From the NCBI GenBank assembly GCA_019310525.1, contig JAFDEE010000029.1, positions 1-32,425 of the forward strand: a stretch of DNA of 32,425 nt, given 5' to 3'. Position numbers and translations under genes: made by a program. A model generated the notes under the pieces. It did not search any database, was not told the DNA's origin, and worked only from the letters and a program-made list of their open reading frames with translations. Origin of the DNA: Deltaproteobacteria bacterium (lineage in GTDB: Bacteria > Desulfobacterota > DSM-4660 > Desulfatiglandales > HGW-15). Within the stretch, counting starts at the first letter, position 1. Each line of letters begins with the position of its first letter. Shown one piece after another: positions 5,672 through 32,179 of the stretch.

Positions 5672-5711
5672 GATCCTGCTTCCTCAAGGGCCACGGTGGA
5701 ATCCGAAGGCC

Positions 5712-6218
5712 CTATGGATTGGCCGAGAGGAAATCGGCGATGAAGGTATCTATTCCCTTGGAAAGGTGCTGCCGGAGGAATTCCGGGGCGGCACGGACCA
5801 GGATGGCCCTGGATTCCCAGGTGGGAGCCCAGAACACGACTCTCGGCCTACGTGCCAAATGACTTTGTTGTTGCAACCGGATCGAGAGAAGTACCACGGC
5901 GAGATCTTCGCTCGGCCCTTCCGAAAAGGCCAGCCCCACGACCAGCCAGCCGAAAGGATAATTCCCGGACCGGCTGTAGCGGTCAAATTGCCCCTTTGGA
6001 AAAATCCTTATCCCCGCCCGGGCCAATTGTTTCTCGATGCTCATCTTGAGGGATTCCGCCGTGATCCCCTCCATCGAACCGCTCAGTACAACATCCACGT
6101 AGACGCCCTTGAGCCCTTCCAGGCTCCTGGCGACCATCTCCTTTGCGCTGGCGGGAGCCGGGAGAAATACGACAAAAACAAGCACCGCCGCGATCAGCGC
6201 CGTTCCTTTTCTGAACAT
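5712..6218 (-). CDS. Small secreted protein of unknown function
   Basis: I do not recognise this as a named family. The 168-residue product begins with a clear Sec signal peptide: MFRKG, then a hydrophobic stretch, then APASA with likely cleavage before KEM. The mature part reads as a compact alpha/beta domain. It has a segment of the form GITAESLKMSIEKQLARAGIRI, two beta strands (WLVVGLAF and LAVVLLSIRL), an arginine-rich patch and a tryptophan pair (VFWAPTW), and it ends FIADFLSANP. No lipobox is seen. The start at 6218 is preferred because AGGAGG lies six bases upstream; the neighbouring ATG at 6224 touches the AGGAGG. It sits between mpl and pcm. A periplasmic location is inferred from the signal peptide. 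Confidence 0.75.
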   Translation of the reverse strand: MFRKGTALIAAVLVFVVFLPAPASAKEMVARSLEGLKGVYVDVVLSGSMEGITAESLKMSIEKQLARAGIRIFPKGQFDRYSRSGNYPFGWLVVGLAFSEGPSEDLAVVLLSIRLQQQSHLARRPRVVFWAPTWESRAILVRAAPEFLRQHLSKGIDTFIADFLSANP

Positions 6219-6294
6219 CTCCATCCTCCTTCCAGTTCCTTCAAAGGAGCTACCGTCCCCGGTATGCACCTTCCCCAAGGCACACCAACACTCC

Positions 6295-7779
6295 TTATCT
6301 TTGCGGAACAGGAAAATTGTCCATTCTTTTCAAAAGCCTGTCAATGAGGTTATCAAAAGATCCGTTGGACATTACCAGGACGACGTCCCCCCTCTTGATT
6401 CCGCCCAGAAGGGCCCTGAGAAGACTTTCGGTATCCGGATGGTAGGTGGCCTGAACTCCCCTTTGAAGCAAGTCGGCGACCAGCTTTTTTGAAGAAAAAC
6501 GCTCCTGTAGCGGGACCTTTTCCATCATTGGGGGCTCGGGGATCAGGACCCGATCGGCCGCGTTGAAAGATTCGGCGTACCTGGCCTGGAATACCCTCCT
6601 TCGGCTCGAATTGGACCGGGGTTCAAAGACCGCCACGATTCGGCGGCCCCTGTATTTTTCTCTCACCGCCCGGAGGGTCTCCCGGACCGCCGTGGGATGG
6701 TGGGCGAAATCGTCCAGGACCAGCACCCCTCCCTTTTCCCCGCGGATCTCCTGCCGTCTCTTTACCCCGAGAAAAGAGAGTGCAGCCTCTGCCGTTACGG
6801 CAGGGGCCTCCCCAAGGAACGCTGAAAGGGCCACAGTGGAAAGCAGGTTGTGGATGTTGTGATCCCCGTAGACCGGGGTCTTGATTCTGAGATACTCATC
6901 CCCATCCATGAGGATCCTGAACCGGGTCCCGTTTTCCCGGACCTCCACATCCACGGCCCTCCAGTCCACATCCGAACCAAACCCGTAAGTGATGACCCGG
7001 CAGGGGGCTTTTTCCACCTCGGCCCGTACAAGGGGATCGTCCCCGTTGGCCACGATAACCCCGGAAGAGGGAAGGATACGGATCAGTTTTCGAAAACTCT
7101 CCAGGACATGCTCCAGATCCCGGTAGATATCCGCATGGTCGAACTCGATGCTTGTAAGCACCGACGCCCAGGGTGCATAGTGGAGGAACTTGGGTCCCTT
7201 GTCAAAAAAAGCGGTGTCATACTCATCTCCCTCCACCACGAAGTAAGGACCTTTGCCGAGCTTAAAACCGGTGGAAAAATTGAGGGGAATTCCCCCTATC
7301 ATGAATCCGGGATCCATCCCGCTTCTCTCCAGGAGCCAAGCTATCATGGAACTGGTCGTGGTCTTGCCATGGGTGCCGCACACAACGATAGGTCTCTTCT
7401 CCTCGATGGCAAAGATCTTCAAGGCCTGGGGAAAAGAGAGATAGGGAATACCCAGCCTGGCGAGTTCCAGGGCCTCAGGGTTGAGCCTGGTAATGACGTT
7501 GCCTACGATGACTAGGTCCGGTCGGGGATGGAGGTTGCGGGGGGCATAACCTTCCCGGATGGGAATACCCAGTTTTCGGAGAAAATCGCTCATGGGCGGG
7601 TATACATTCTGATCAGAACCCTTGACCTCGTAGCCTTTCTCTTTCAAGATTCCGGCAAGGGAAGCCATTCCCGTGCCGCAGATACCCATGAGGTGGATGG
7701 ATCGAAGGTTTCCAGGGATCCGATTGAGCCCGGGGGAAAGCTTTGCATAGGGTGCAGGGCATGAACCCTCCATATTCAT
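6295..7779 (-). CDS. mpl: UDP-MurNAc:L-Ala-gamma-D-Glu-meso-DAP ligase
   Basis: Mpl attaches recycled murein tripeptide to UDP-N-acetylmuramate, saving synthesis by MurC, MurD and MurE. The product (494 residues from 7779) has the MurC-like N-terminal domain HLMGICGTGMASLAG, the Mur ligase ATP loop CGTHGKTTTSSM (about 134-145), EGDEYDTAFFDKGPKF, which is diagnostic of Mpl versus MurC, and the C-terminal domain motif DDFAHHPTAV. Start: GGAG six bases ahead of ATG at 7779 favours this codon; ATGs at 7791 and 7773 and a weaker frame to 7806 are alternatives. It implies a meso-DAP cell wall. It is first in the minus-strand run and divergent from rpmB. Confidence 0.93.
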   Translation of the reverse strand: MNMEGSCPAPYAKLSPGLNRIPGNLRSIHLMGICGTGMASLAGILKEKGYEVKGSDQNVYPPMSDFLRKLGIPIREGYAPRNLHPRPDLVIVGNVITRLNPEALELARLGIPYLSFPQALKIFAIEEKRPIVVCGTHGKTTTSSMIAWLLERSGMDPGFMIGGIPLNFSTGFKLGKGPYFVVEGDEYDTAFFDKGPKFLHYAPWASVLTSIEFDHADIYRDLEHVLESFRKLIRILPSSGVIVANGDDPLVRAEVEKAPCRVITYGFGSDVDWRAVDVEVRENGTRFRILMDGDEYLRIKTPVYGDHNIHNLLSTVALSAFLGEAPAVTAEAALSFLGVKRRQEIRGEKGGVLVLDDFAHHPTAVRETLRAVREKYRGRRIVAVFEPRSNSSRRRVFQARYAESFNAADRVLIPEPPMMEKVPLQERFSSKKLVADLLQRGVQATYHPDTESLLRALLGGIKRGDVVLVMSNGSFDNLIDRLLKRMDNFPVPQR

Positions 7780-7800
7780 CAGGGACTCCATAAAAATTAT

Positions 7801-7829
7801 TTGCAAAAATGATTCAATATGGTTAGACT
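7801..7829 (+). promoter_or_regulatory. Possible sigma-70 promoter for rpmB
   Basis: TTGCAA and TAGACT are separated by 17 bases, each matching four of six consensus positions, in an A/T-rich patch between the divergent mpl and rpmB. Two short GC hairpins (GCGGA/TCCGC and CTGCC/GGCAG) lie between it and rpmB and could be leader structure. The same A/T patch may also carry the mpl promoter on the other strand. The call is weak. Confidence 0.3.
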
Positions 7830-7974
7830 ATATATTTTGCGTAGTCGATATCCAGATCCTTTTCCTTTCCTACCGGGCGGAGCCTCCGCGGGGTGGCCTG
7901 CCGGAGGGCAGTACTGGAATACCAAATTAGATCCGGGGAAAGGTTGATCCTGCTTTTTCAAAAGGAGATGATCC

Positions 7975-8163
7975 ATGTCAAAGGTATGTGAAATCTGCGG
8001 GAAAAGACCCCAAGTTGGATATAATGTCAGCCATGCCCACAACAAAACGAAAAAACGATGGTATCCGAATCTCCAGAAGGTGAGGGTCCAAAAGAATGGA
8101 AGAACCGTCAGGATGAAGGTCTGCACCAGTTGCATCAAATCCGGGTTCATCACCAAGGCCTAA
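7975..8163 (+). CDS. rpmB: 50S ribosomal protein L28
   Basis: A 62-residue large-subunit ribosomal protein. It starts [10 protein letters not shown] and has paired cysteines CEIC (5-8) and CTSC (50-53), so this is the zinc-binding (C+) form of L28. It contains the family segments [20 protein letters not shown] and [16 protein letters not shown] strong ribosome site, GGAG, lies seven bases before the ATG. It stands alone on the plus strand between mpl and the convergent rel gene, and a hairpin follows immediately. Because C+ and C- ribosomal protein paralogs exist in some bacteria, a second zinc-free copy elsewhere is possible but cannot be seen here. Confidence 0.97.
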
Positions 8164-8177
8164 ACCTTTAGCAGGAT

Positions 8178-8220
8178 GTTGAAAAACGTAGCGAGCGCAG
8201 TAGTTTTTCAACTGAAAAAC
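8178..8220 (+). terminator. Three-armed hairpin repeat between rpmB and rel
   Basis: GTTGAAAAAC (8178-8187) and GTTTTTCAAC (8203-8212) are a perfect 10-bp inverted pair with a 15-base loop. The right arm also pairs perfectly over 8 bp with TGAAAAAC (8213-8220), so two alternative hairpins share one arm. It begins 15 bases after the rpmB stop and ends four bases before the convergent rel stop, so it may end transcripts from both sides. There is no T run outside the stem. The TTGAAAAACGT core is shared with the two larger repeats at 13329 and 23483. Confidence 0.5.
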
Positions 8221-8223
8221 GTC

Positions 8224-10365
8224 TCACAACCTCTCAACCAGCAGGACGTTCTTCACCCTCTTGAGGGCATTGATGATTTCCTGCAAGTGCCGGTAATCCG
8301 TGATCTCTACCGTAAAGACCGAGATCCCCTTGTGGTCCACCGTGGTCTTAACATCCGCCTGAAGGATATTGCCGTCCTTTTGGGCGATTGCGGCGCTGAC
8401 CTCGGCCAGGACCCCTTTGCCCTCCAGGGTGGTCACCTTCAACTTGACCGCATGTACTTCCTCCGCCGAGCTCTCCCACACGACGTCCACCAGGCGCTCC
8501 GGGTTAGCCTCCTTGATGTGGCGGCAATCGTGCTTGTGGATTGTCACTCCCCTTCCGCGGGTGATAAAACCGATGACCGGCTCACCAGGAAGAGGATTGC
8601 AACAGTTGGCGAAACGGACCATCATGTGGTCCACACCCTTTACCTTGATGCGCCGGGTGCTCTTCTTCCGCTTGATCCGCGAAACCATCTTGCTGACGAT
8701 CCCATGGACCTTCTCCTCTTCTATCCCCAGCTTGGGTTTGAGCCGGCCGATGACCTGGCGGACTGAAACCTTTCCGTAACCGATGTTGGCCAGCAGATCC
8801 TGGACCGTGTGAAAGGAGAATTCCCTGGCCAGGGCCGCCAGGGGTTCGCTTTTTTGAAGGTTGGGCAGGTTGATATGGTTCTGCTCCAGGGCCTTTTCCA
8901 GGATTTCTCTCCCCAGAGTGATGCTCTGGTCCGTTTCCTGTCCCCTGATCCAGTGCCTGATCTTCGTCTTGGCACGGGAGGTCTTCACAAAATCCAGCCA
9001 GTCCTTGCTTGGATGGGCCTTCGCGGAGGTGATGATCTCCACCATATCACCATTCTTGAGCTGGTATCGCAAAGGGACCATCCGTCCGTTCACCCGGGCA
9101 CCGGCGCACTTGTCCCCCACCTCGGAGTGGATGCTGTAAGCAAAATCCACGGGCGTGGCCCCCCGGGGGAAGGCCTTCACTTCTCCCCGGGGCGTGAAAA
9201 CATAGACCTCGTCGGGAAAGAGGTCCATGCGTACGGATTCCATGAACTCCCTCGGGTCCTTGAGGCTCTTCTGCCACTCCAGGAGCTGCCGCAACCAAGC
9301 GAACTGCCTCTCATCCTCCCTGCTCGAAGAAAGGCCCTCTTTGTATTTCCAGTGGGCGGCGATTCCCTCCTCAGCCACCCTGTCCATCTCCCAGGTGCGG
9401 ATCTGGATCTCCATCCGCTGACCCAGAGGTCCAATCACCGTGGTATGGAGAGACTGGTACATGTTGGCCTTGGGCATCGAGATATAATCCTTGAAACGCC
9501 CGGCCACCGGCTTCCACATGGAATGAATAAGACCCAGGATCTCATAACATTCCCTCAGGGAATTCACGATCACCCGGAAGGCTACAACGTCGTGGACCTG
9601 ATTGACGTTCAGGTTCTGGTCCCGCATCTTTCTGTAGATGCTGTAAAAATGCTTGTGTCTTCCTTTGATGGTGGCCTTGATATTGGCCTCTTCAAGCTTC
9701 CTGGAGAGAAGGGCCTTGACCTCCTCAATGAACTTTTCCCGGGCCCCCCGCCGCATGGCCAGTTCCGTCTTGATCATCTCGTAAATGGCGGGCTCCAGGT
9801 AAAAAAGACAGAGATCTTCGAGGCTGGATTTCAACCAATAGATCCCCATCCGTCCCGCGAGGGGGGCATAGATATCCAGGGTCTCCCGTGCGATCAACAC
9901 CTGTTTTTCGGGCGGCTGGAATCCGAGGGTCTGCATGTTATGGAGCCTGTCGGCGAGTTTTACGATAATGACCCGGATATCGGTGGCCATAGCGAGGATC
10001 ATCTTGCGCATGTTTTCGGCCTGCCGTTCCTCCCGGGTCGTGAACTGCATTTGGCCGATCTTGGTGACCCCGTCTACGATCTTGGCCGTTTCGGTGCCGA
10101 ACAGGCGCTCGATCTCGGAGAGTTCGGCGTCCGTATCTTCGATGGTGTCATGGAGGAGGCCGGCCGCCACGCTGGTCACATCCATCTTCATCTGGGTCAG
10201 GATATAGGCGACCTCAAGGGGATGGGAAAGGTAGGGTTCCCCGGAAAGGCGGATCTGTCCCTGGTGGACCTTGGCTGAGTAAACATAGGCCTTCTCCACC
10301 AGGCTGATTTCAGCGTTCGGGTTGTAAGACAGGAGCTGCCCGGTGATATCATTTAACCGAATCAT
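8224..10365 (-). CDS. rel: Bifunctional (p)ppGpp synthetase/hydrolase, Rel/SpoT family
   Basis: It makes and degrades the stringent-response alarmones ppGpp and pppGpp. The 713 residues show every domain in order: the HD hydrolase domain with LLHDTIED (HD at 72-73) and [10 protein letters not shown]; the synthetase domain with RFKDYIS (290-296) and YQSLHTTV; the TGS domain (about 385-445) with [16 protein letters not shown]; a helical and zinc-finger-like region with CCNPLPG; and a C-terminal ACT domain (about 640-713). The RxKD synthetase signature is that of bifunctional Rel rather than monofunctional RelA, which carries ExDD. The hydrolase motifs are also intact. The ATG overlaps the end of proS by 17 bases and has no good ribosome site, suggesting translational coupling. 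Confidence 0.95.
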
Positions 10366-27312: not shown

Positions 27313-28530
27313 ATGAAAAAGCACATTTACCTGGACAACGCCGCAACTTCCTTTCCCAAACCCCCCCAGGTCCTGGAGGCCATGACACACTTCATGAACG
27401 AGGTCGGAGCCAATCCCGGACGGGCGGGCCACGAGCTCTCCGTGGAGGCCGGCCGCATCGTGAGCAGGACCCGGCAAAGCCTGGCGACACTGTTCAACAT
27501 CCGGGAACCCGAGCGGATCGTTTTCACCCTCAACATCACGGAAGCAATCAACACCGTACTTTTCGGCTTCCTGAATCCCGGAGATCACGTAGTCACCACG
27601 GGCATGGAACACAACTCCGTGATCCGTCCTTTGAAAGAGCTGGAGCGGCGCTCCGTGATCAGCCTGGACATCGCCCCATGCGACCGGAAAGGTTTCCTGG
27701 ATATCGACGCCCTGCCCAGGCTTCTCCGTAAGAACACGGCCCTGATGGTACTGAACCACGCCTCCAATGTCTGCGGAACCCTGCAGGACGTGCGGGCCGT
27801 GAAGGAGAAGATCGGGGAAATCCCCCTTCTGCTCGACACCGCCCAGACCGCCGGCTGCTACCCCATTGACGTGGAGGCGGATGGCATCGATTTCCTGACC
27901 TTCACCGGTCACAAGGCCCTCATGGGGCCCCAGGGAACGGGGGGCCTTTACATCCGGGAAGGGCTCAGGGTCCGCCCCCTCAAGCTCGGAGGCACTGGGA
28001 GCGTTTCAGAGAAAATGATCCAGCCCGACTTCCTCCCGGACGCCCTGGAGAGCGGGACACAGAACAACGTGGGCATCGCCGGTCTGGGAGCGGCCGTGGA
28101 CTTCATCCTTGAAGAGGGGGTTGACAGGATCCGGGAACACGAAACGGCTCTTACCCGGGCACTCCTTAAGGCCCTCTTTCCACTTCAGGGCTTGACCATT
28201 TACGGGCCTCTCAAGCCGGAGGAGCAAACCGCCACTGTTTCCATTACCTTCGACAGCGTCCTTCCCGCCGGATCCCGGCACTTACCTTCCGGATGCGGAT
28301 CCATCAACCTGGCCTGGATGGAAGAAGGGATCTCACCGGCCCATGCCGGGAAAAAACTCGGCGCGGAATACGACATCCTCGTCCGCGTTGGTCTCCATTG
28401 CGCTCCCCTCGCCCATCAAACCCTCAATACCTATCCGGAGGGTACTGTGCGCGTAAGCATGGGATACTTCAACACCCTCGAAGAAATCGGATACGCCGCC
28501 GAGGCGATCAGAAAAATCACCGAAAGCTAG
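27313..28530 (+). CDS. Cysteine desulfurase family protein (class V aminotransferase fold)
   Basis: A PLP enzyme expected to release sulfur from cysteine as a protein persulfide. It has 405 residues: YLDNAATSFPKPPQV at the start, His100 (MEHNSVIRP) stacking on PLP, Asp175/Gln178 (LLDTAQTAG), Lys201 as the Schiff base (FTGHKALMGPQGTG), and the mobile-loop nucleophile Cys363 in RVGLHCAPLAH. That motif set fits the stand-alone SufS-like family seen near selenium, xdh or Fe-S genes rather than IscS. Residues about 316-340, between a beta strand (TVSITFD) and the helix preceding the catalytic loop, look like an insertion containing an extra Cys (SGCGS). No clear ribosome site is seen. No SufE or IscU partner is adjacent. 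Confidence 0.9.
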   Translation: MKKHIYLDNAATSFPKPPQVLEAMTHFMNEVGANPGRAGHELSVEAGRIVSRTRQSLATLFNIREPERIVFTLNITEAINTVLFGFLNPGDHVVTTGMEHNSVIRPLKELERRSVISLDIAPCDRKGFLDIDALPRLLRKNTALMVLNHASNVCGTLQDVRAVKEKIGEIPLLLDTAQTAGCYPIDVEADGIDFLTFTGHKALMGPQGTGGLYIREGLRVRPLKLGGTGSVSEKMIQPDFLPDALESGTQNNVGIAGLGAAVDFILEEGVDRIREHETALTRALLKALFPLQGLTIYGPLKPEEQTATVSITFDSVLPAGSRHLPSGCGSINLAWMEEGISPAHAGKKLGAEYDILVRVGLHCAPLAHQTLNTYPEGTVRVSMGYFNTLEEIGYAAEAIRKITES

Positions 28531-28659
28531 GATGTGTCCATCCATAAAGGGCCAGCCAATAAGCCGCTCAGCGTGTCGATTGGCACCTGCATCGCCGAAG
28601 TTCCCCTAAATACATTCCACCACGCATTTCCGGCAAACGAGGCATTTGCATAATCCAGG

Positions 28660-28688
28660 TTGAAATATGTTTATATTGTAGCTACAAT
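28660..28688 (+). promoter_or_regulatory. Sigma-70 promoter with palindromic operator over the -10 box
   Basis: TTGAAA (28660-28665) is followed after exactly 17 bases by TACAAT (28683-28688), each five of six to consensus. The perfect 14-bp palindrome ATTGTAGCTACAAT (28675-28688) covers the -10 box, an ideal place for a dimeric repressor. The predicted transcription start is near 28695, giving a leader of about 100 bases before the BamB-like gene. No regulator gene is adjacent, so the controlling protein is unknown. Confidence 0.65.
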
Positions 28689-28715
28689 GTAATTATCAAA
28701 TTCAAAACGAAACAC

Positions 28716-28797
28716 CATTCATTAAATCGTCCGCAGCTTTCAGCCTCCGGCACATGGGGGCTACGCCTTGGAGACCCAAAAAGGGAGTTAATAAATG
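28716..28797 (+). ncRNA. Structured 5' leader, candidate Moco/Tuco riboswitch
   Basis: Two helices can be seen. AGCCTCC (28742-28748) pairs with GGGGGCT (28756-28762) around a 7-base loop, with one G-U pair. CATTCATTAA (28716-28725) pairs over nine of ten positions with TTAATAAATG (28788-28797), closing the whole region and burying the start codon. Between them are CATGG, ACGCC and GGAGACC segments. From memory these resemble the molybdenum-cofactor RNA motif; only two bases separate ACGCC from TTGGAGACC's GG, as would fit the tungsten-cofactor variant that lacks the P3 stem. The downstream gene encodes a probable tungsten enzyme. The identification is tentative because I cannot run a covariance model. 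Confidence 0.4.
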
Positions 28798-30762
28798 AGA
28801 TACTCAGAGACAGGGTATAATTTAGAGATTGATCTATCCCGAGGAAGCATCGAGAAGGTGCCGACTGACCCGGGATTGACCGAACTTCACCTGGGGGGTC
28901 TGGGCACCAACGCCAAGATATTATGGGACAGGGTGCCACCTGAGGTAGAACCTTTTTCCCCGGATAATCTGCTGGTATTCAGCTCAGGTCTTTTAGTCGG
29001 CACACCTGCCTTTGGTGCCAATCGCACAATTATTTCTTCTATTTCTCCTCAGACCTTGTTGATGGGGTTTTCAATGATGGGAGGATTTTGGGCGCCGGAG
29101 TTGAAATTTGCCGGTTATGATAAAGTCATCGTTCGTGGAAAATCCCCCAAATTGGTCTACCTGTGGATTAATAATGATAAAGTAGAGATACGGGATGCCT
29201 CTCATTTAAAAGGTAAAAGCACTTATGAAACCGCGGAACTCATTCGTCAGGAATTGCACGAACCCAAAGCTCAGGTGCTCTCCATCGGGCTTGCCGGAGA
29301 AAACAGGGTCTATTTTGCTTCCATTGAGGCTGATAAAAGCAGTGCCAGTCGATTAGGGCTGGGTGCCATTATGGGAGACAAAGGGTTAAAGGCAATCGCA
29401 GTTCGCGGAACAAAGGACATCAATATCGCCCGACCTGCCGAATTCATTGAACTATGTAATGAAGTACTGGAAAAGATCCAGCATCGGCTGAATAATCCTC
29501 TCCAAGGAGTAATGCCCATTCATGCCAGGATTGGATCTCCACAGGAGATGGTCATACATGATGAGGAGTGGCACACCACAAGCTTCGCTTGGGGAAACGC
29601 CCGGCATCGGAGAAGAGACTTCTGGAACAAAGAAATCGAAAAGCAGTGGACTGAGACCTTGGAGAATGCCCGGAAGAGGTTGATAAGCTGCTATAACTGT
29701 CCGGTAAAATGCGCTGGATTAATCGAGCTGCCGGGATTTCCAACGTACGTGATGAAATGTTTCTCGAAACTTACTTATGTATTCGCTGCCATGGTTGATA
29801 ATCTGGATTTCGGTCTAAAAATAGCTTCCCGTGCCCAGCACTATGGAGTAGACGGGTACACGACCCCCCAAGTTATGGCCTTTGCCCTTGAACTTTATGA
29901 GGCCGGCATCCTGACTGATAAGGACATGGAAGGAATGCCCTCAGATCCTGAAGGAAAATTTTTCTGGCTGCTCGATAGAATTGTCAGGCGGGAAGGGATA
30001 GGAGATGCCCTGGCCGACGGTGTTTATTGGGCGGCCCGTCAGATTGGCAAAGGAGCAGAGGCATACGACCATAATACCATTAAAAAACATGAACAGATAC
30101 CCATCAAACTGGGAAAGCTGAACCCTATTTATTACCTGATGTGGTCTACAGGCGAGAAGGCGAATATCACCCAAATTGAAGGACAGGTCCCCCAGGGCCC
30201 TCTTCCCAAGGAAGTAAGAGAAGAATTTGTGAAGGACTGGATCCAGGTGCCTACCGGAAAAGAGGAAAAGTTCAAGCAGTTTATTTTGGAATGGGGTGAA
30301 CCGGGCACATCATTTCCGTATTATCCTTCTATCGACTTAATCTGTGACCTTGTCGAATGGCAGGAGACCATGCACTACATTGATGACTCCCTTGGGCTGT
30401 GCGCCGGCCTGTCTTCCTTTGGTTATAAACCCCCCTATCATATACACAATCAACCGCTTTTTATCTCATATGCGACAGGAATGGACATCGATGAAGATCA
30501 ACTATGGCAGCTGGCCGCCAGGAATCGAAATTTAGTCAGGGCCGTTAATATAAGAAGGGGATTAAGAAGGGAAGACGAACGTCCTCCCGAAGACCATTGG
30601 AAAAAGAGATTCCCCGAGTATGAAGCCAAGTTATTAGATGAGTATTACAGATTCAAGGGGTGGAACAGCCAGGGTATTCCGACAAAAGACACCCTGCACA
30701 AACTGGGGCTGGATTACGTATACAAAGATTTCGCAGATAGGGGAATCCTAAAAGATGAATAA
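28795..30762 (+). CDS. bamB: AOR-family tungsten enzyme, BamB-like (class II benzoyl-CoA reductase subunit)
   Basis: The 655-residue protein belongs to the aldehyde:ferredoxin oxidoreductase family, whose members bind a tungsten bis-pterin cofactor and one [4Fe-4S] cluster. The cluster ligands are Cys299, Cys302 and Cys306 (CYNCPVKC) and Cys536 (GLCAG). It resembles BamB along its length, and Glu251, His255, His260 and Cys322 coincide in number and identity with the BamB active-site residues as I recall them. BamB with ferredoxin-like BamC dearomatises benzoyl-CoA in strict anaerobes. No bamC-I gene is in the window. GGGAG lies seven bases before the ATG. The coding sequence is visibly richer in A/T-ending codons than its neighbours, suggesting separate acquisition. 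A different aromatic or alicyclic acyl-CoA substrate is possible. Confidence 0.85.
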   Translation: MRYSETGYNLEIDLSRGSIEKVPTDPGLTELHLGGLGTNAKILWDRVPPEVEPFSPDNLLVFSSGLLVGTPAFGANRTIISSISPQTLLMGFSMMGGFWAPELKFAGYDKVIVRGKSPKLVYLWINNDKVEIRDASHLKGKSTYETAELIRQELHEPKAQVLSIGLAGENRVYFASIEADKSSASRLGLGAIMGDKGLKAIAVRGTKDINIARPAEFIELCNEVLEKIQHRLNNPLQGVMPIHARIGSPQEMVIHDEEWHTTSFAWGNARHRRRDFWNKEIEKQWTETLENARKRLISCYNCPVKCAGLIELPGFPTYVMKCFSKLTYVFAAMVDNLDFGLKIASRAQHYGVDGYTTPQVMAFALELYEAGILTDKDMEGMPSDPEGKFFWLLDRIVRREGIGDALADGVYWAARQIGKGAEAYDHNTIKKHEQIPIKLGKLNPIYYLMWSTGEKANITQIEGQVPQGPLPKEVREEFVKDWIQVPTGKEEKFKQFILEWGEPGTSFPYYPSIDLICDLVEWQETMHYIDDSLGLCAGLSSFGYKPPYHIHNQPLFISYATGMDIDEDQLWQLAARNRNLVRAVNIRRGLRREDERPPEDHWKKRFPEYEAKLLDEYYRFKGWNSQGIPTKDTLHKLGLDYVYKDFADRGILKDE

Positions 30763-30876
30763 AAAGTGAGGAATGCTTCCGCTGACGATTATAAAAAACC
30801 TCTATGTATTCAAAAATGGAACGCAGGGCATCCTTAAGGCACGAAAAATATTGCCGATAAACCAGCTCCGATTTAA

Positions 30877-30910
30877 GTTGTTGATCTCACAACCTCTTCT
30901 TTTTCTTCTT
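30877..30910 (+). terminator. Weak terminator after the BamB-like gene
   Basis: GTTGT (30877-30881), a 7-base loop and ACAAC (30889-30893) are followed by a T-rich tract. The stem is only 5 bp. It lies about 115 bases past the stop. The rest of the 217-base gap 30763-30979 is A/T-rich with nothing recognisable. Confidence 0.35.
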
Positions 30911-30979
30911 GACAGGATAATATAGGGTTGTCCCCAAACTCTACAAACTGACTAAATTCATCGACCCCTGAGCTATCGG

Positions 30980-32179
30980 CTATGTGCAACGAGATGAACC
31001 ATCAGGCAAAGAAGTCAGCGTTGCCCAAAGATCTTGCACCTGGAGCGGATTGAAGATGCGGGCACCTCGGACCTGGAATTGCTGTTCGCCGTTATAAAGG
31101 ACCGCGCCGGTGGTGACACGGTCGACTCCCAATGCTTGGAACCGCTCCAGGCCTTTCACAAAGTCCGCGGAGAAGGTGGCCGCTGACTTGATTTCTGCCG
31201 GTATGAGCCTGCCCGCTTCTCTGATCAGAAGATCCACCTCATGGCCATGGGAGTCGCGGAAGAAATAGATCTCAGGCCTGATTCCCCTGTTGAGCGCTCC
31301 CTTGACAATGTCTGCAATTACAAGGTTCTCGTACAGGTTCCCGCGAAGGGGATCGCGGGAGGCCTGTTCTTCCGTGTGGATGCCCAGGAGGAAGGCAGCG
31401 AACCCCGGGTCTGTGAAGTATATCTTGGGAGACTTGATGACGCGTTTGCGGATATTCCTGAAAAACGGCGGGAGATCGAAAACAACATAAGACGCCTTCA
31501 ACACACTCAGCCAGTTTCTGATGGTCGTGGCGGATACGCCCACATCATTTGAAAGGGATGTGAGGTTGACAAGCTGGCCAACACGGCCTGCCAGCAGGGT
31601 GAGAAAGGTCTGAAACGGAGTCAGTTCGCGCAAATTGATGAGCGAACGCACATCCCGCTCCACATACGTCTGGAAGTAACCATTGTAGAACCTGCGCGGG
31701 GCCAACCCTTCTTCGTGGACGCGCGGAAAACATCCGCAGGCGATCAGCTCGAAGGCCCCCCAGGTGGACTTGTACCTGCGGAGTTCGGAAACAGAAAAAG
31801 GCCATAGCGTGAGCATGGCGGTCCGGCCGGCCAGGGACTGGGTGATCGCCTCGTGCAGCCGCGGCTGATGGCTCCCGGTAAGAATAAACATCCCCGGTCT
31901 CCCTGCTCCGTCCACGATGCCTTGGATATATGACAGCAACGCGGGAACGCGCTGCACCTCGTCCAGCACTGCGCCGTCTTTCATCCGGTTCAGGAACCCA
32001 CGGGGATCGGTCTCGGCCGCCATGCGCACGTCCGGGTCTTCCAGGGAAGAGTACGGCTTGTCCGGAAACGTCATCCGGACCAGGGTCGTTTTCCCCGACT
32101 GCCTGGGCCCCAGGACCGTGACCACGGGGTACTCGGCAGCCGATTCCACCAACTCTTGTGAGATCTCGCGGGTAATCAT
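30980..32179 (-). CDS. AAA+ ATPase with DUF4143 domain
   Basis: A 399-residue protein of the widespread ATP-binding/DUF4143 group of unknown function. The N-terminal AAA_14 ATPase has Walker A GPRQSGKT (24-31), Walker B VLDEVQ (71-76) and sensor-like LTGSHQ (100-105). After a winged-helix-like segment (SLSNDVGVSATTIRNWLSVLKAS) comes DUF4143, with LYENLV (Glu284), EVDLLI (Asp315) and PAEIKS (Glu329, Lys331). These match the pattern of a PD-(D/E)xK nuclease-like core. Family members are often solitary, patchily distributed and near mobile DNA. This one fits that habit, lying between the A/T-rich BamB-like gene and an insertion-sequence-like end. The ATG has no clear ribosome site. GC-rich coding contrasts with the preceding gene. 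Confidence 0.88.
   Translation of the reverse strand: MITREISQELVESAAEYPVVTVLGPRQSGKTTLVRMTFPDKPYSSLEDPDVRMAAETDPRGFLNRMKDGAVLDEVQRVPALLSYIQGIVDGAGRPGMFILTGSHQPRLHEAITQSLAGRTAMLTLWPFSVSELRRYKSTWGAFELIACGCFPRVHEEGLAPRRFYNGYFQTYVERDVRSLINLRELTPFQTFLTLLAGRVGQLVNLTSLSNDVGVSATTIRNWLSVLKASYVVFDLPPFFRNIRKRVIKSPKIYFTDPGFAAFLLGIHTEEQASRDPLRGNLYENLVIADIVKGALNRGIRPEIYFFRDSHGHEVDLLIREAGRLIPAEIKSAATFSADFVKGLERFQALGVDRVTTGAVLYNGEQQFQVRGARIFNPLQVQDLWATLTSLPDGSSRCT

Follow-up and report, generated by a model that had tools for sequence, protein, structure and literature searches.

The solitary bamB gene on contig C29

The analysed stretch of DNA, hereafter the window, is the complete contig C29 with a length of 32.4 kb. 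It carries a bamB-like gene (28795..30762, forward strand) for a protein of 655 aa, which is predicted to be the tungsten subunit of a class II aryl-CoA reductase. Many strict anaerobes open aromatic rings by means of class II benzoyl-CoA reductase, whose tungsten subunit is BamB. The gene is a single, intact ORF that runs from ATG through the stop codon, and numerous stop codons interrupt the reverse strand opposite it. Upstream lies a gene for a class V aminotransferase of the cysteine desulfurase family (27313..28530, forward strand) and downstream, in convergent orientation, one for an AAA_14/DUF4143 ATPase (30980..32179, reverse strand), neither of which has a known link to BamB. The rest of the contig, with genes for RecG, RelA/SpoT, a class II tRNA synthetase, and a branched-chain amino acid transporter, is ordinary chromosomal DNA.

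Searches (tblastn) with BamC and BamD-I queries recovered no bamC or other bam homologue in the 32.4-kb contig besides this bamB. Elsewhere in the window, the searches yielded nothing beyond weak matches of the ferredoxin type, the best of which (E 2.5e-6) was an ORF near 16.7 kb, a generic NIL-ferredoxin gene 12 kb from bamB. Because the contig extends 1.66 kb beyond bamB and the downstream gene is convergent, no co-transcribed bamC was cut off. The possibilities that bamC was lost at the contig end or is hidden on the opposite strand were also ruled out, as tblastn with 89 BamC queries was negative.

The best promoter-like site before bamB (TTGAAA-N17-TACAAT, 28660..28688, forward strand) is located approximately 105 nt upstream of the start codon. 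It is a consensus match only, and the promoter scan is weak evidence, with 6 promoter-like sites observed versus 3.7 expected. The -10 element overlaps a perfect 14-nt palindrome, ATTGTAGCTACAAT (28675-28688), which forms the core of TTATATTGTAGCTACAATGTAA (28671-28692). This core is unique within the window. Its inner 12 nt were found in no other fetched locus examined except two that cover the same place. The palindrome is a possible operator in front of bamB. The gene and its two intergenic flanks form a low-GC stretch (28531..30979; GC 0.46, 0.47, and 0.41). The GC3 of bamB is 0.50, compared to 0.59-0.81 for the other genes in the window; the only genes consulted for a typical GC3 were those of the window and of contigs C53 and C14, and ten further members of the AOR family. 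No convincing insertion-marking repeats flank bamB.

Identity and conservation of the BamB protein

The Pfam domains AFOR_N (8.7e-69) and AFOR_C (4.1e-58) span the full length of the protein. Its top match among solved structures was BamB (PDB 4z3w; 1027 bits, residues 1-652), followed by the AOR of P. furiosus with 207 bits, and its identity to the crystallized BamB of G. metallireducens is 66-67% over the full length. An AlphaFold model calculated from 79 input sequences (pLDDT 92.9; an earlier model from 18 sequences was poor, with pLDDT 65.5) could be superimposed on chain A of 4z3w with a Z score of 57.5 and an rmsd of 1.0 Å over 650 aligned residues with 67% identity, whereas true aldehyde oxidoreductases deviated from the model by 2.3-2.6 Å at 26-28% identity. 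In phylogenetic trees calculated with FastTree and IQ-TREE, the protein is placed within the BamB clade, apart from the AOR-type enzymes of its own genome. Both a predicted Cys ligand to tungsten and the closest similarity, which is to BamB, set it apart from AOR, FOR, and GAPOR.

The residues assigned to Zn binding and the proton relay in the substrate pocket of BamB (PMC12096430) are all present, with the codons of E251, H255, E257, and H260 at 29545..29574 (forward strand, as are all codons listed here); E257 is the fourth Zn-site residue. C322 (29758..29760), also present, is predicted from sequence to ligate tungsten. A W ligand of this type is found in BamB and YdhV and in no other AOR-family members (PMC12096430). 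The four cysteines of the [4Fe-4S] cluster are in place as well, C299, C302, and C306 at 29689..29712 and C536 at 30400..30402. The protein shares its fold, the residue that ligates W, the cysteines of the cluster, and the residues of the Zn site with the BamB of G. metallireducens (Gmet_2087, PDB 4z3w). Across 107 BamB-like proteins, no variation occurs at C322, at H260, or at any of the four cluster cysteines, and E251 is retained in 94 of the 97 rows ungapped at this position. H255 is retained in just 73 of the 107 sequences and, because of this variability, is weak as a diagnostic residue on its own. A sequence-only reading of the window had listed 655 residues, E251, H255, H260, C322, and four cluster cysteines, and had assigned the protein to BamB. 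All residues were found at exactly those numbers, and the assignment holds: the protein neither branches outside the BamB clade nor has it lost the pocket residues, either of which that reading had named as grounds for rejection, and the model fits 4z3w to 1.0 Å.

The conservation of the gene extends beyond the catalytic residues. A comparison to its ortholog in another genome (locus L012) yielded a dN of 0.061 and a dS of 1.66 (dN/dS about 0.04); the window bamB is under strong purifying selection. Of the 225 near-invariant positions of bamC-linked BamBs, the window protein deviates at one by a conservative exchange (I61V), and the median of the linked proteins is also one. The window protein experiences the same constraint as those BamBs whose partnership with BamC is known or presumed, and the surface that would contact BamC is presumably covered by it. 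Judged by its sequence, the gene is an additional, well-preserved copy of bamB, and its product is an ordinary BamB. It represents a known enzyme in an uncommon gene arrangement and a new member of its family, not a new enzyme.

Bam genes and the benzoyl-CoA pathway in the same genome

The sequence-only reading had described the enzyme as standing alone, without BamC or other Bam genes. This is correct within the window only, as contig C53 of the same genome carries bamB-C-D-E-F. The C53 BamB is 77% identical to the window copy. The C53 BamC (bamC at G000:C53:23684-24205) shows 73% identity to a BamC from a Geobacter MAG and matches the crystallized BamC (4z3w_E, 3e-81). No second BamC with more than 37% identity was found in the genome, and hence any true BamC partner of the window protein must be the C53 BamC. 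Three further BamC-like proteins have 35-37% identity, and their genes adjoin, or are fused to, their own AOR. Genes for bamGHI were not found beside bamBCDEF on C53, and the best BamH-like gene (57%) is located on C18. In NaphS2, bamB-F and bamG-I occupy two loci (PMC2988823). This is a precedent for subunits of one Bam complex being encoded at separate loci, as proposed for the window gene, although the bamB of NaphS2 stays with bamC-F. The bamB of G. metallireducens is part of a bamBCDEFGHI cluster, whereas the window copy is solitary and its companion bamBCDEF lies elsewhere.

Contig C14 encodes Had and Oah, both above the curated cut-offs. Together with bamBCDEF on C53, these genes indicate that the organism has the central class II benzoyl-CoA pathway, for which the window gene would provide an additional catalytic subunit. 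The earlier proposals that the subunits may be encoded elsewhere and that the organism belongs to the anaerobic aromatic degraders are borne out at the gene level and supported, respectively. For class I benzoyl-CoA reductase, the genome contains a weak match below the cut-off only, and none of eight matches to benzoate-CoA ligase (TIGR02262) exceeds the cut-off. The presence of dsrA (570 bits) suggests an anaerobe that respires sulfur compounds.

Several other features of this genome (G000) were observed. It contains eleven AOR-family genes, among them one on C48 whose ORF continues into a BamC-like ferredoxin portion as a fusion and another on C40 that was scored with an in-frame TAG. The bamE gene (G000:C53:25748-28798; L093, about 5691-8828) contains one in-frame TGA, as do two other HdrA-like genes (C51:9379-12378 and C19:45836-48832), and these codons possibly specify selenocysteine. 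The BamF ORF (G000:C53; L093:9008-9706) additionally resembles the ferredoxin portion at the C terminus of BamH (~70%), as if the two were fused.

Distribution and origin of solitary bamB genes

A bamC gene follows within 1.5 kb downstream in 97 of 107 evaluable BamB loci, a set that is partly redundant, but not in the other 10. Among these ten, L012 and L103 are one gene, L040 has bamC further on, and L106 and L115 lie on contigs too short for good judgement. Linkage to bamC, which the window gene lacks, is usual but does not define the protein. The window BamB pairs with L012 (G011:C19; 89% identity, support 97.6/100), and L055 (G020:C46) joins the two with moderate support (SH-aLRT 76.7, UFBoot 88). 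Neither L012 nor L055 has a bamC within 1.5 kb downstream; like the window gene, both occur in genomes with bamBC elsewhere (G000:C53, G011:C60, and G020:C10). The three are nested in a clade with 100/100 support whose remaining members, the nearest being L013, are linked to bamC. A group consisting of the three solitary genes is the best tree, but an alternative that places the bamC-linked L013 by the window gene and L012 was not rejected. L055 differs from the window copy in having D at position 255 (H255D), in its greater divergence (15 deviations at the near-invariant sites), and in its adjoining glyoxalase-family gene; given this divergent member, the solitary group may be functionally non-uniform. 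The glyoxalase-family gene (L055:7884-8330) directly precedes bamB. ORFs of like size precede many bamC-linked bamB genes, and it is possibly an ancestral neighbour.

A recent duplication of the C53 bamB can be rejected, as an AU test excluded a grouping of the window gene with this companion (p about 1e-94). A grouping of L012 with its own companion in G011 was likewise rejected. The genes around the solitary bamB are unrelated among all three genomes, and the DNA similarity between the window gene and L012 begins just before the start codon and extends to near the end of the CDS but no further. At fourfold-degenerate sites their divergence is 0.53, compared to 0.65 and 0.71 for GroEL and 0.74 for MtaB of the same genomes; because dS is saturated for most pairs, the transfer is not datable. 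The low GC3, the similarity ending at the CDS, the differing neighbours, and the low fourfold divergence favour acquisition as a single gene. With moderate confidence we infer that the window bamB was probably gained in this way and did not arise from the clustered copy by duplication. L012 matches its neighbours in composition, unlike the window bamB. The bam genes on C53 have a GC3 of 0.38-0.52 versus 0.62-0.72 in the surrounding genes, and the had gene, with 0.70, is not low.

Function of the additional BamB

The reading that we consider probable is that the product of the window gene is functional and serves an ATP-independent class II aryl-CoA reductase as a second BamB, acting as an interchangeable catalytic head on the BamC encoded on C53. 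This BamB would take up W-bis-metallopterin and one [4Fe-4S] cluster and dock on the C53 BamC, and low-potential electrons would reach it through the C53-encoded complex. The ring of its presumed substrate, benzoyl-CoA or a close aryl-CoA, would then be reduced via the known E251/H260/C322 mechanism. Expression from its own promoter may lead to production under conditions that differ from those of the clustered copy, with separate regulation of the two, and the gene would have been gained by transfer as a single cistron. The explanation is supported by the BamB identity, the intact catalytic residues, purifying selection, the presence of the partner genes, and the lack of a close relationship to the companion. 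Several BamB paralogues are known from G. metallireducens (PMC1924859), Geotalea daltonii (PMC13119186), and D. multivorans (PMC5109826). As in the window organism, an extra BamB is present in addition to the Bam complex in G. metallireducens (BamB2/BamC2, Gmet_1802/1803), D. multivorans (BamB1/2), and G. daltonii (bamB1/3/4), where the paralogues have their own expression patterns. However, the paralogues of G. metallireducens and D. multivorans retain their own bamC, which the window paralogue lacks.

Within this explanation, the second BamB could be a plain isoenzyme or, as a sub-case, a substrate specialist that shares the BamC-F module. The latter, a tentative option, would convert another aryl-CoA, such as a benzoyl-CoA with a methyl or hydroxyl group, or work in reverse on a cyclic dienoyl-CoA. 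The placement of the window protein in a 100/100 clade distinct from the companion BamB, with the rejected grouping of the two, would be in line with such a specialization, and so would the expression of paralogous BamBs on different substrates in other species (PMC5109826). However, all catalytic residues and all but one of the near-invariant positions are as in ordinary BamBs, and no substrate-specific genes adjoin the window bamB.

It is unlikely that the enzyme works without BamC, either alone with soluble ferredoxin or with the ferredoxin-type subunit of another AOR (C77, C48, or C40). The absence of an adjoining bamC, the three BamC-like proteins in the genome, and the generic NIL-ferredoxin gene on the same contig would fit this scenario, and many enzymes of the AOR family consist of a single subunit (class I WORs, PMC13328260). 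However, aryl-CoA reduction at about -620 mV needs a bifurcating complex (PMC12096430), the sites conserved in BamC-linked BamBs show no relaxation, and the other BamC-like genes adjoin, or are fused with, an AOR of their own. Still less probable is a recently acquired or stranded gene that has no present function. A single gene of foreign-looking composition outside an operon might be such a relic, but the intact reading frame, the low dN/dS relative to L012, and the single change among 225 conserved sites argue against it. An assembly or binning artefact, with the whole contig or the junctions of bamB being foreign or chimeric, is very improbable. The genome is a draft of 158 contigs with an estimated contamination of 3.14%, and the GC3 of bamB differs from that of its neighbours; yet the nearest ortholog, L012, also lacks bamC in another assembly, the MtaB encoded in the window matches genomes of the same family at 54-59% versus 42-51% for other families, and in GC content the window (0.56) comes close to C14 and C53 (0.50-0.54). 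Finally, a mistaken BamB assignment of what is in fact an aldehyde oxidoreductase or a YdhV-type protein can practically be dismissed despite the shared AFOR domains and the Cys ligand to W that is also found in YdhV (PMC12096430), because the protein lies inside the BamB clade, its BamB score is far above that of the nearest AOR, and it reaches 209 bits with the YdhV-family model (PRK09849), below the curated cut-off of 868.

Returning to the second BamB as an interchangeable head, one could speculate that there is a BamB lineage that has lost its linked BamC and moves between genomes as a single-gene head, plugs into the resident Bam complex, and widens the range of aryl-CoA substrates, an extension that we regard as rather doubtful. 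If BamBs were exchangeable on one electron-delivery complex and were inherited or transferred alone, counts of bam clusters would underestimate the aromatic substrate range of an organism. From a lone bamB in a metagenome, one could then infer neither that the pathway is complete nor that it is missing.

Two further loci without adjoining bamC deviate in other ways. At L157:11381-13339 (G006:C690), bamB is located downstream of bamE-bamF in a rearranged bam locus, and no adjoining bamC was found. The bamC-less BamB of L125/L156 (G007:C707:8681-10633), the single strong BamB match in G007, adjoins a TetR-type regulator. In this protein E251 and H255 are replaced by Phe and Pro, respectively, and 18 near-invariant sites deviate; a change of function would be more plausible here than for the window gene.
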